From contig JAILDN010000023.1 of assembly GCA_024689425.1 (NCBI GenBank), positions 1 to 40,422 of the forward strand: a stretch of 40,422 nt of DNA, written 5' to 3'. Under the pieces are notes generated by a model that worked only from the letters and a program-made list of their open reading frames with translations, searched no databases and was not told where the DNA came from. Of the stretch, positions 33,656 to 38,106 are shown piece after piece (the stretch's first letter is position 1; every line of letters begins with the position of its first letter). A program made the translations under genes and the position numbers. The DNA comes from Methanobrevibacter sp. Its GTDB lineage: Archaea; Methanobacteriota; Methanobacteria; Methanobacteriales; Methanobacteriaceae.

Positions 33656-33667
33656 AAATATGATTAA

Positions 33668-33707
33668 AGTATTACTAAAATATGATATTTTAAAAAAAAG
33701 TATTACT
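33668..33707. promoter_or_regulatory. Paired AGTATTACT boxes upstream of the cobN-like gene
   Basis: Two copies (33668-33676 and 33699-33707), 31 bp apart, next to an ATATTTATTA TATA-like box on the minus strand. Confidence 0.72.
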
Positions 33708-33721
33708 AAAGAGGATTCAAA

Positions 33722-33754
33722 AAATAAAAAAGAGAGAAGTTATTGAAACTTCTC
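33722..33754 (-). terminator. Hairpin terminator after the surface protein gene
   Basis: GAGAAGTT (33734-33741) / AACTTCTC (33747-33754), then T-rich on the minus strand. Confidence 0.8.
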
Positions 33755-33756
33755 GT

Positions 33757-36700
33757 TTAAGCAGTTACTTTTATAGTATTTGCAACATTTGTTCCATTGT
33801 AGCTGGAAGTGATAATGTATTCTCCAGGCATTAACCTAATGTTTAACTTAGCATTTCCTTCACTATCAGTAGTTCTACTATAGAACTCACCGTTAATGTT
33901 GAAGGTTACATTTTCGCCAGTAGCTGGATTACCTTGACCATCAAGCAAGTTAGCTACAAATTGGTCAGGAGTACCGTATTTTTTGGTTAAATCTTCAGCA
34001 GACAATACAGGTTTTACAGTAATTTGGTTTGAAACTTTGCATCCTTTATATTCTGCTGTAATTATGTAATCACCCGGACTTAAGTTAATGTTTAACTTAG
34101 CGATTCCGCTTGCATTTGTTGTACGGTTGTAGAATACACCATTGATGTTGAATGTTACAACTTCACCAGCGTCGACTGCTTTTCCATCGTCACCAACAAG
34201 TTTAACAGTGTATTGAGTGCCGTTTTTATAGTATTTGGTGATATCCTTATTTTCAATGATTTTTGATAAAACTGTGATGTTATTTGCACAGTTTTCACCA
34301 GTAGCGGTGTTCATTGCAGTAATGATATAATCACCTTGTTGGAGGTTAATGTTTAATTTTGCTAAACCTTGATTTCCAACGACTTTACGCTCATATAATA
34401 CACCATTGATGTTGAATTTAACTGTAGTTCCTTCAGCAAGGTAATTACCTTGACTATCACGGAATGTTGCATAGTATTGGCTAGCATTTTGGTATACTTT
34501 TACAAGATCTGTACCATTTACAGTTGATAAAACAGTCACAATAGAATTGGCTGTAGTATTATTGAATTTAGTGGTTACAGTATATACTCCAGAGCCTAAT
34601 CCAAGACCAATGCTGGCATTACCGTTTTTATCAGTAGTTTTTGTGTAAGTAACACCATTAATAGTAATTTCTACAGATTTGTTTACAATAGGATTACCTT
34701 GATAATCTGCAACATTTACAACAAATCTTTCTGGTCCTTTGTAGTATTTTTCTACATCAGGAGCTGTGATAACACTGGAAGTATTTTCATTTATCACAAC
34801 AACCATTTGGTGTAAACCTAAAATAGTAGCGCCAGTTGATTCGAAGTAAACACTCAAATCAGTAGAATTGAAATCAAATATAGTGTAAGTAAGAGAATTA
34901 CTAGTTCCATTCCAGACATCAGTGTGAGTTTCTCCATTAACAATTAAATTACCTTCTCCAGCTTGAGCACTAGCAGCAAATACAACGACCATAGAATCAC
35001 CATCAGCTACGCTGAAAGTAGTGTTGAAACCAACAGGTAAATTCTTATTATAAGATTTAGATAACAAATCAGCTTCCTCTAAAATGTAAACATCATATAC
35101 GAAAGGACAGGTTTTATTTTCAACTAAAACAATTAAGTTACTTGGATAAACAGCTGAGGTACCTTTAGTCTTATTAAATTCAAAAGTATTCACACCAGAA
35201 ACAACTAAATCAGTTACATCATAAACAACTAATCCATAGCCATACTTAGCAGAAGCACCGCCTAAATTAGATTGATCACGATAAGAAGCAATAGGAGCAA
35301 TCACTTTACCATTAAATGTAGTATTCCAATTGTTGAAGTCACCTTTTGCATCTTTATCCCAGTTATAAGAGACATATAATAAAGCTTGAGTGACATTACC
35401 ATCAGATGTTAAATTAAACTTATCAGTTCTATTAGTTGCACTACCGGCACTATACTCATCAGTAACTAAAACGATTACTTCTCCTCTAACAACAAATTCT
35501 CTTAAAGTAGAATTAGCTTTAGGATATTCGTAATCTTTACCTAAATAACCGTCATACACAACAACACATGAAACAATTTTTGAGTTTATTATATTGCCGT
35601 TAGCATCTTCAACAACAACAGTATAATTCACTTTTTCATTGTTATTGCCGTTAACGGTATTTTCTGTGATTGGTCTGATAGTTGCATCAACAGCATTGAA
35701 AGTATAAGTTTCACCAGCAGCATAATCATCGATATTTTGAATACTGATTGTTTCATTGCCCATTAAAACTTTAACAACAACATTTTCAGTAGAACCACCA
35801 GTATTTTCAACGGAAACTGTTAAATTATTAATTACTCCAGCATAAATAGAAGGAACACTAGTATATTCAGATTTAATTGTAATGTCAGCAGTAGGTGTTT
35901 TATTTTCATTTACTACGACAACCATTTGGTGTAAACCTAAAATAGTAGAGCCAGTAGATTCAAAGTAAACTTCAATATTATCTGAATCAACATCAGTAGT
36001 ATAAATATCAAAAGACTTAGTAGTACCACTCCAGACATCAGAATGATTTTCACCATTAATGATTAAATTACCTTCACCAGCTTGAGCACCAGCAGCAAAT
36101 ACATACAAAGTAGCATTATCATCAATCACATCAAAGACAGTGTTGAAACCAGTAGGTAAATTCTTATTATTAGATTTAGATAACAAATCAGCTTCTTCAT
36201 AAATATAAACGGTTTTTTCAAATTCAGCTTTTTTGTTATTAGTTAAAACAATTAAGTTACTTGGATAAACCGCAGCATTACCTTTAGTTTTATTTAATGC
36301 AAAAGTATTTTCACCTGCAACAACTAAATCAGTGACATTATAAACAACTAATCCATAGCCATACTTACCATAACCGCCTAAATTAGATTGATCACGATAA
36401 GAAGCAATAGGAGCAATCACTTGATTATTAAATGTGGTATTCCAGGTGTTAAAGTCATCATTAGGATTTTTATCCCAATTATAAGAAACATACAATAAAG
36501 CTTCACTAACATTACCGTCAAATGCTATATTATAGACATCAGTTCTATTAGTATCACCAGCAGCACTATATGTACCATTGGTTAAAACAATAACATCACC
36601 CGTGACAGTGAATTCTCTTAAAGTTGGGTTAGCATTAGGATACTCATAATCTTTACCTAAATTACCATTATATAATACTTTATATGAAGCATTTGTAGAA

Positions 36701-37890
36701 TTTAAAACTCCGCCTTTACTGCTTAAGATGTTTAGAGTATAATTAACAATCGTATTTTTAGCACCATTAACTGTAGTTTCATTAATAGGCCTAATAGTAG
36801 GGTCAACTAATTTAATTGTAGTTTTATTATTAGCACCAACAAACAAATCGCTAGAATCAATCTCTTCATCACCAATTAATAATATAACACTACCATTCAA
36901 CTCTTTATTTCCATTATTAACTGTAATAGTTAATGTATTGTTAACACCAGCATAAACAGTACCAATATATTCTGGAGTTATAGTAGCAGAAACATTGTTT
37001 TCTGGAGTATTAACTTTTAATAATTGGATTGCAGCCTTATATGAAGCATATGTAGATGCTTTTGATGAAGTATATGCGAAATTAGTGTCTTTTGATAATT
37101 CAAAAGTGTCAGTTATATTCCAAACATCATAAATATAATAATTACCTTTAGTTTGAATTGGATCAGTTAATAATTGTCCATTTAAATTATAAGTAGCATC
37201 AGAACTAGAAAGAGCAATGGATTCTAATGTAACATCATCATAATCCTTATTGAAATCTTTAGTTCTAAAGACTGTAGTTAATGTTTCTTTTGTCCATGCT
37301 TGACCAATATTTAGCCAATATGATATTTTATCATTATCATTATCATCATAAGCAAAAGTTAAAGCAATTAATTTAATTCTTCCATCAAACTGGTATCCTT
37401 CCAATTCAGTATTATTTACTGAAATTGTAATTTTATCTCCAGGAGATAAACTTTTTACTTTGTCAGTTATATTTACAAAAGTCTGATAATCAGAATATTG
37501 CTTTGAAGTAAGATTAGTTATAGGATAAATGACTGGATCATTTGCTGTACTAGTAGGATATGTCAAATTAGCAAATTCCAATATTTGTGTTGTATTACCT
37601 GTTTTTAAAGATATTTTAGTAGTTAATCCATAAGTTGGTGCACCACTTCCAGAATAAGAAGAAACAACAACATTCACGGATTTTATCTCACTTACATTTG
37701 CAGGGACCTGATAAACAAGCTCACCACTCTTTGAAGAAAAAGGATTGACTGACGGTATTTCAACCCCACCAGATACAACTCCATCTTCAACTGGAGGCAA
37801 CGCAGAATCCTCTGCAAAAACAATTCCTGAAGAAAGAATTATAAAAAACAAAAATATTGCAATAAACAAATATTCATTTCTTAATTTCAT
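33757..37890 (-). CDS. Large secreted adhesin-like surface protein (two DUF3344-like modules plus four C-terminal Ig-like repeats)
   Basis: Signal peptide MKLRNEYLFIAIFLFFIILSSGIVFAED; duplicated LGKDYEYP...ASYRDQSNLGG...FESTGxTILGLHQMVVV modules; repeated FNINGVxYxRTTxxxGxAKLNINLxPGxYIITA units; SD GGAGG before ATG. Confidence 0.87.
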   Translation of the reverse strand: MKLRNEYLFIAIFLFFIILSSGIVFAEDSALPPVEDGVVSGGVEIPSVNPFSSKSGELVYQVPANVSEIKSVNVVVSSYSGSGAPTYGLTTKISLKTGNTTQILEFANLTYPTSTANDPVIYPITNLTSKQYSDYQTFVNITDKVKSLSPGDKITISVNNTELEGYQFDGRIKLIALTFAYDDNDNDKISYWLNIGQAWTKETLTTVFRTKDFNKDYDDVTLESIALSSSDATYNLNGQLLTDPIQTKGNYYIYDVWNITDTFELSKDTNFAYTSSKASTYASYKAAIQLLKVNTPENNVSATITPEYIGTVYAGVNNTLTITVNNGNKELNGSVILLIGDEEIDSSDLFVGANNKTTIKLVDPTIRPINETTVNGAKNTIVNYTLNILSSKGGVLNSTNASYKVLYNGNLGKDYEYPNANPTLREFTVTGDVIVLTNGTYSAAGDTNRTDVYNIAFDGNVSEALLYVSYNWDKNPNDDFNTWNTTFNNQVIAPIASYRDQSNLGGYGKYGYGLVVYNVTDLVVAGENTFALNKTKGNAAVYPSNLIVLTNNKKAEFEKTVYIYEEADLLSKSNNKNLPTGFNTVFDVIDDNATLYVFAAGAQAGEGNLIINGENHSDVWSGTTKSFDIYTTDVDSDNIEVYFESTGSTILGLHQMVVVVNENKTPTADITIKSEYTSVPSIYAGVINNLTVSVENTGGSTENVVVKVLMGNETISIQNIDDYAAGETYTFNAVDATIRPITENTVNGNNNEKVNYTVVVEDANGNIINSKIVSCVVVYDGYLGKDYEYPKANSTLREFVVRGEVIVLVTDEYSAGSATNRTDKFNLTSDGNVTQALLYVSYNWDKDAKGDFNNWNTTFNGKVIAPIASYRDQSNLGGASAKYGYGLVVYDVTDLVVSGVNTFEFNKTKGTSAVYPSNLIVLVENKTCPFVYDVYILEEADLLSKSYNKNLPVGFNTTFSVADGDSMVVVFAASAQAGEGNLIVNGETHTDVWNGTSNSLTYTIFDFNSTDLSVYFESTGATILGLHQMVVVINENTSSVITAPDVEKYYKGPERFVVNVADYQGNPIVNKSVEITINGVTYTKTTDKNGNASIGLGLGSGVYTVTTKFNNTTANSIVTVLSTVNGTDLVKVYQNASQYYATFRDSQGNYLAEGTTVKFNINGVLYERKVVGNQGLAKLNINLQQGDYIITAMNTATGENCANNITVLSKIIENKDITKYYKNGTQYTVKLVGDDGKAVDAGEVVTFNINGVFYNRTTNASGIAKLNINLSPGDYIITAEYKGCKVSNQITVKPVLSAEDLTKKYGTPDQFVANLLDGQGNPATGENVTFNINGEFYSRTTDSEGNAKLNIRLMPGEYIITSSYNGTNVANTIKVTA
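34802..36660 (-). repeat. About 1.12-kb in-frame internal duplication in the surface protein gene
   Basis: ACCATTTGGTGTAAACCTAAAATAGTA at 34802 and 35921; ACAATTAAGTTACTTGGATAAAC at 35129 and 36248 (offset 1119 bp); ATAAGAAGCAATAGGAGCAATCAC at 35281 and 36397 (offset 1116). Confidence 0.9.
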
Positions 37891-37979
37891 ATTTTTCCTC
37901 CATTTTATTAGAAAAAAATAAGCTAATTTAAATAGCTACAATAAAAAGTTTAGAAAAAATAATATATAAATATACTTAA

Positions 37980-38020
37980 AGTATTACCCTACTATTAAAT
38001 TATATAAAAAAAGTATTACT
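37980..38020. promoter_or_regulatory. Paired AGTATTAC boxes upstream of the surface protein gene
   Basis: GTATTAC at 37981-37987 and 38013-38019 (32 bp apart); proximal copy has the same distance to the TATA box as in the cobN-like promoter. Confidence 0.72.
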
Positions 38021-38106
38021 AAACAAATTTTTTAACAAATAGATATAATTATTAAGTTATTGATTGCAAAATATTAATATTAAATAAAAAAAATGAGGCA
38101 AAATCA

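Follow-up and report, generated by a model that had tools for sequence, protein, structure and literature searches.

The window, i.e. the whole 40,422-nt stretch of Methanobrevibacter DNA analysed here, contains two promoters with paired copies of a short palindromic box. One pair precedes a cobN-like gene and its presumed operon, and the other precedes the gene for an adhesin-like surface protein. The features concerned are listed by position, strand and kind.

26735-27073, minus strand: DUF2149 protein, presumed cobN-like operon
27079-27726, minus strand: MotA/TolQ/ExbB-family proton channel, presumed cobN-like operon
27741-28451, minus strand: DUF2162 predicted transporter, next gene in the presumed cobN-like operon
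28562-33628, minus strand: cobN-like chelatase-superfamily gene, 1688 aa, N-terminal signal and C-terminal membrane anchor
33649-33658, minus strand: TATA-like element TTTATTAATA of the cobN-like promoter, predicted from sequence
33668-33676, minus strand: proximal operator box AGTAATACT of the cobN-like promoter
33699-33707, minus strand: distal operator box AGTAATACT of the cobN-like promoter, 31 bp from the proximal box
33757-37890, minus strand: DUF3344 adhesin-like surface protein, 1377 aa
37963-37970, minus strand: TATA-like element TTTATATA of the surface-protein promoter, predicted from sequence
37980-37988, minus strand: proximal operator box GGTAATACT of the surface-protein promoter
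38012-38020, minus strand: distal operator box AGTAATACT of the surface-protein promoter, 32 bp from the proximal box
38107-39408, plus strand: PaaK-type CoA ligase, divergent from the surface gene

The first-pass annotation had described both pairs with their 31 and 32 bp spacing, an equal distance of the proximal box from the TATA-like element and the absence of other intergenic copies. The coordinates of the boxes could be confirmed, the gap between the end of the TATA-like element and the proximal box is 9 nt in both promoters, and a search of the whole window revealed no further exact copy. The PaaK-type CoA ligase next to the surface-gene pair had been overlooked. This pair sits between the divergent DUF3344 and PaaK genes, about 87 bp upstream of the latter, and the ligase is possibly co-regulated via the shared operator region. 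A PaaK-type CoA ligase divergent from a DUF3344 gene, with a common operator region, is found in several species. Single boxes with one mismatch occur 18 times in the window at an expectation of 13.8, which is no excess over chance. Since single boxes are not enriched, the window by itself could not decide between an operator and chance repeats in AT-rich intergenic DNA.

Comparison between genomes settles this question. The relaxed pattern GTAWTAC-N24-26-GTAWTAC matches nine times in the genome from which the window is derived, and the reversed pattern, which served as the control for all pair counts, does not match at all. In 41 genomes of the genus the strict pair was counted 205 times against a single control match, and it is present in 40 of them. 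The start-to-start distances of the boxes are sharply confined to 31 (14 counts), 32 (103) and 33 bp (49), with almost nothing at 20–30 or 34–36 bp and no peak at 20–22 bp in the histogram. Either A or T can occupy the centre of a box, and box orientation is not fixed, in line with the palindromic sequence. A loss of the motif from orthologous promoters would have spoken against the first-pass annotation; the opposite was found, as 38 of the 40 orthologous cobN-like promoters carry a pair scoring at least 15/18 and 28 of these promoters reach 18/18, compared to a maximum of 16/18 in 800 shuffles. With nearly empty controls, sharp spacing and conservation in orthologues, a chance origin of the pairs is ruled out for practical purposes. 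Judged by genome comparison, GTAWTAC palindromes paired at 31–33 bp constitute a genuine operator. Nearly all relatives of the cobN-like gene that carry a name come from Methanobrevibacter, and a phylum-wide search with the pattern added just one genome outside the Methanobacteriales. The literature covered by our searches contained no relevant description of the motif; one may exist elsewhere, such as in regulon databases.

Nickel is central to methanogenesis as a constituent of F430 and of [NiFe]-hydrogenases, and Methanobrevibacter species are the main methanogens of gut and rumen. The genes behind the operator belong to this context. When the surroundings of the pairs were retrieved by pattern alone, 113 of 121 pairs were followed within 320 bp by a gene from one of 14 recurrent families, targets being assigned by proximity to the pair and several genomes being incomplete. 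The families comprise CobN-like proteins, NikA-like binding proteins, CbiM/NikM, GNAT acetyltransferases, QueG-like iron-sulfur proteins, DUF3344 surface proteins, heavy-metal P-type ATPases, NikD-like ATPases, PaaK, nicotianamine synthase, a coiled-coil protein, HmdC, Hmd and CDF transporters. This is the reverse of a motif common in front of unrelated genes, and the metal-transport genes anticipated for a genome-wide scan by the first-pass annotation are among the targets (NikA/NikD-like, CbiM/NikM). Only one of the 121 pairs falls within a predicted ORF, and this ORF is a GNAT frame that was extended too far upstream. In the present genome, all nine pairs precede genes of the recurrent families (CobN-like, DUF3344, NikM, P-type ATPase, GNAT and Hmd/HmdC), with three pairs serving NikM and two Hmd/HmdC. 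In other genera and families the operator is located before NikM, NikA, NAS/GNAT, Hmd, DUF3344, HypB and CfbA genes; part of the relaxed pairs in other genera has no nickel-type target. Genomes that we read as Methanothermobacter-type have zero to one relaxed pair each, and those of their pairs with a spacing of 31–33 bp are found in front of NAS/GNAT, NikM, a DUF3344 protein and a ChlI/D-like chelatase subunit.

Hmd is a nickel-free hydrogenase that spares nickel, HypB and CfbA insert nickel, the latter as the F430 nickel chelatase, and nicotianamine-type molecules chelate it. The targets thus serve nickel uptake, delivery or sparing. The heavy-metal P-type ATPase is usually an exporter; as a likely exporter it fits oddly into a starvation regulon and counts against this assignment. 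Nevertheless, the target set makes it highly probable that the operator defines the nickel starvation regulon of the Methanobacteriales. The first-pass annotation had proposed one dedicated metal- or corrinoid-responsive factor for both genes of the window; its metal part is supported by the nickel targets and its corrinoid part is not. An operator responding to cobalt or corrinoids, which would be in line with CbiM-type transporters and a CobN-like protein among the targets, appears very improbable. The targets hmd/hmdC, hypB, cfbA, nicotianamine synthase and NikA/NikD follow a nickel logic, and the CobN-like protein reaches none of the CobN equivalog cut-offs. Moreover, a 2025 proteome of M. 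marburgensis found high levels of CobN1 and NikR1 only when nickel was limiting (PMC12350162). Transporters rise there at nickel shortage as well, and so does Hmd according to earlier work cited in PMC3087415. The searchable papers on M. marburgensis define neither an operator nor a regulon, whereas the Methanobrevibacter regulon is defined here from sequence, with DUF3344 surface proteins and nicotianamine synthase among its members. No nickel-control operator of Methanobrevibacter was found in the searchable literature; the paired operator now predicts the nickel regulon of about eighty genomes.

Given a nickel regulon, NikR is the probable binder of the paired box. It is encoded in 112 of 115 genomes of the order, with at most one copy per genome in the genus Methanobrevibacter. 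The NikR of the present genome consists of a ribbon-helix-helix N-terminus and a NikR_C domain, exceeds the NCBIfam cut-offs and, in an alignment with P. horikoshii NikR (2bj1), has an intact His3Cys nickel site with QH, HxH and C conserved. The half-site GTATTAC is NikR-like, differing by one base from GTGTTAC, the half-site of delta-proteobacteria; that of enterobacteria is GTATGAT (PMC545781). The bacterial operators (GTATGAT-N13/14-ATCATAC and GTGTTAC-N13/14-GTAACAC) likewise consist of two short half-sites in fixed helical phase in front of nickel-transport genes. In contrast to bacterial half-sites, each Methanobrevibacter box is palindromic by itself, and the regulon is larger than that of enterobacterial or delta-proteobacterial NikR. 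The geometry differs as well: instead of a 27–28 bp inverted repeat with an N13/14 spacer, corresponding to about 20–22 bp or two helical turns in published NikR operators, the boxes are spaced by 31–33 bp from start to start, or three turns.

Most nikR promoters of Methanobrevibacter contain degraded pairs, mostly AATAATATT/AGTAATATT, with 31–33 bp spacing about 80 bp before the nikR ATG (loci L071-L087). The best pair scores 14–15/18 in 16 of 16 promoters, and a score of at least 15 was obtained in about 0.4% of shuffles. The boxes are weak, the first one overlaps the end of the upstream gene, and because the sequences are related by descent these pairs provide moderate evidence for NikR; a weak autoregulation of nikR is possible. 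Methanothermobacter-type nikR promoters showed no convincing pair. The NikR proteins of these genomes have a nearly identical DNA-binding segment, yet pairs are scarce there, and this scarcity together with the three-turn spacing argues against NikR. Both points would be explained if the same nickel regulon were controlled by another, unnamed transcription factor of the Methanobacteriales. We consider this unlikely: none of the 16 target clusters corresponds to a transcription-factor gene, the half-site resembles those of NikR, nikR itself has a weak pair and NikR is nearly universal in the order.

Our preferred model, to which we assign a probability of roughly 0.75, is that the paired box is a Methanobacteriales nickel-starvation operator at which repression depends on nickel and is most likely exerted by NikR. 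Each 9-bp AGTAWTACT palindrome would dock one dimeric DNA-binding domain, and two docking sites three helical turns apart would form one operator. Nickel-loaded NikR would then occupy both boxes beside or across the TATA/BRE region and shut the promoter; at nickel shortage NikR would be released, and the nickel-acquisition genes, Hmd, the CobN-like operon and the DUF3344 protein would be made. We infer repression from the position of the pairs. They are located upstream of the TATA element of the cobN-like and DUF3344 genes and across that of the P-type ATPase genes, and GNAT and some NikM genes have them near the start codon. The simplest single factor to act from all these positions is a repressor, blocking TBP/TFB or the polymerase when nickel is plentiful. 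Archaeal activators sit just upstream of TATA, and the location of the pair in the cobN-like and surface-protein promoters would suit an activator docking upstream of BRE/TATA. Such an activator is nonetheless quite unlikely, as repression fits both the pairs bracketing TATA in the P-type ATPase promoters and the short distance of the boxes to the start codon of GNAT and some NikM genes.

The closest solved homologue of the CobN-like protein is the heme dechelatase HmuS (9d26, E 3.9e-86). A signal and a C-terminal anchor were judged by eye. An assignment to cobaltochelatase CobN is not supported by the scores, all of which remain beneath the equivalog cut-offs (651.8 versus 1619 and 408 versus 822), and matches of the tail to RIFIN were likewise below cut-offs and taken as low-complexity noise. 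Among the HmuS residues, H506 and H538 are retained and F502, Q1198, S1199, W1202, H1209 and H254 are not. The positions of H1209, Q1198, S1199 and W1202 are occupied by D, N, T and Y, respectively, which are invariant in 32 orthologues, and no histidine is aligned with H254. By its residues, the CobN-like protein is therefore not HmuS; it may work in an HmuS-like manner on another tetrapyrrole.

In the hmuSTUV heme operon of Bacteroidota, the order is hmuS-hmuT(permease)-hmuU(ExbB)-hmuV (PMC13227078). The cobN-like operon resembles it in gene order: the gene for an anchored CobN-like protein comes first, and after it come those for a predicted permease, an ExbB-like channel and a small protein. 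DUF2162 is likened to HmuT and DUF2149 to HmuV by position. In contrast to hmuSTUV, it is archaeal and has a nickel-type operator; neither a TonB receptor nor HmuY was seen with it. The likeness points to nickel salvage from tetrapyrroles or to some other energised surface uptake. Membership in the predicted regulon suggests that the CobN-like protein and its DUF3344 partner help the cell to scavenge nickel. It is conceivable, if rather doubtful, that CobN-like, DUF2162, ExbB, DUF2149 and DUF3344 proteins form an energised surface machine that strips nickel from tetrapyrroles under a nickel-starvation NikR operator of new geometry. Sources might be, for example, F430 or its breakdown products from dead methanogens, with F430 as a substrate being speculation. 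The use of archaeal CobN/HmuS homologues was termed unclear in a 2025 EMBO J paper (PMC12583661). The operator would give a role to these homologues and to some adhesin-like surface proteins of methanogens, and within a nickel regulon the function of the homologues becomes a testable question.

Several target loci show features of their own. Three pairs, two of them nearly adjacent, precede the CbiM/NikM gene of the present genome (L043:12773-13000), and double pairs in other species are found about 25 and 200 bp ahead of NikM. The genes for the heavy-metal P-type ATPase, which has a CPC motif and a His-rich tail, have one to three tandem pairs with a spacing of 33 that bracket TATA (L044:7815-7855; L020, L023, L189, L199 and others). 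A nicotianamine-synthase/CntL-like gene under the operator is often found beside a GNAT gene (L175:1970-2788, L197, L203, L206) and may point to an archaeal nickelophore pathway. In a sister genus, a CfbA with a second CbiX-like part is under a relaxed operator pair (L233:534-1445). Finally, a QueG/reductive-dehalogenase-like 2[4Fe-4S] protein stays divergent from the NikA-like gene (L019:3352-4044 and orthologues).
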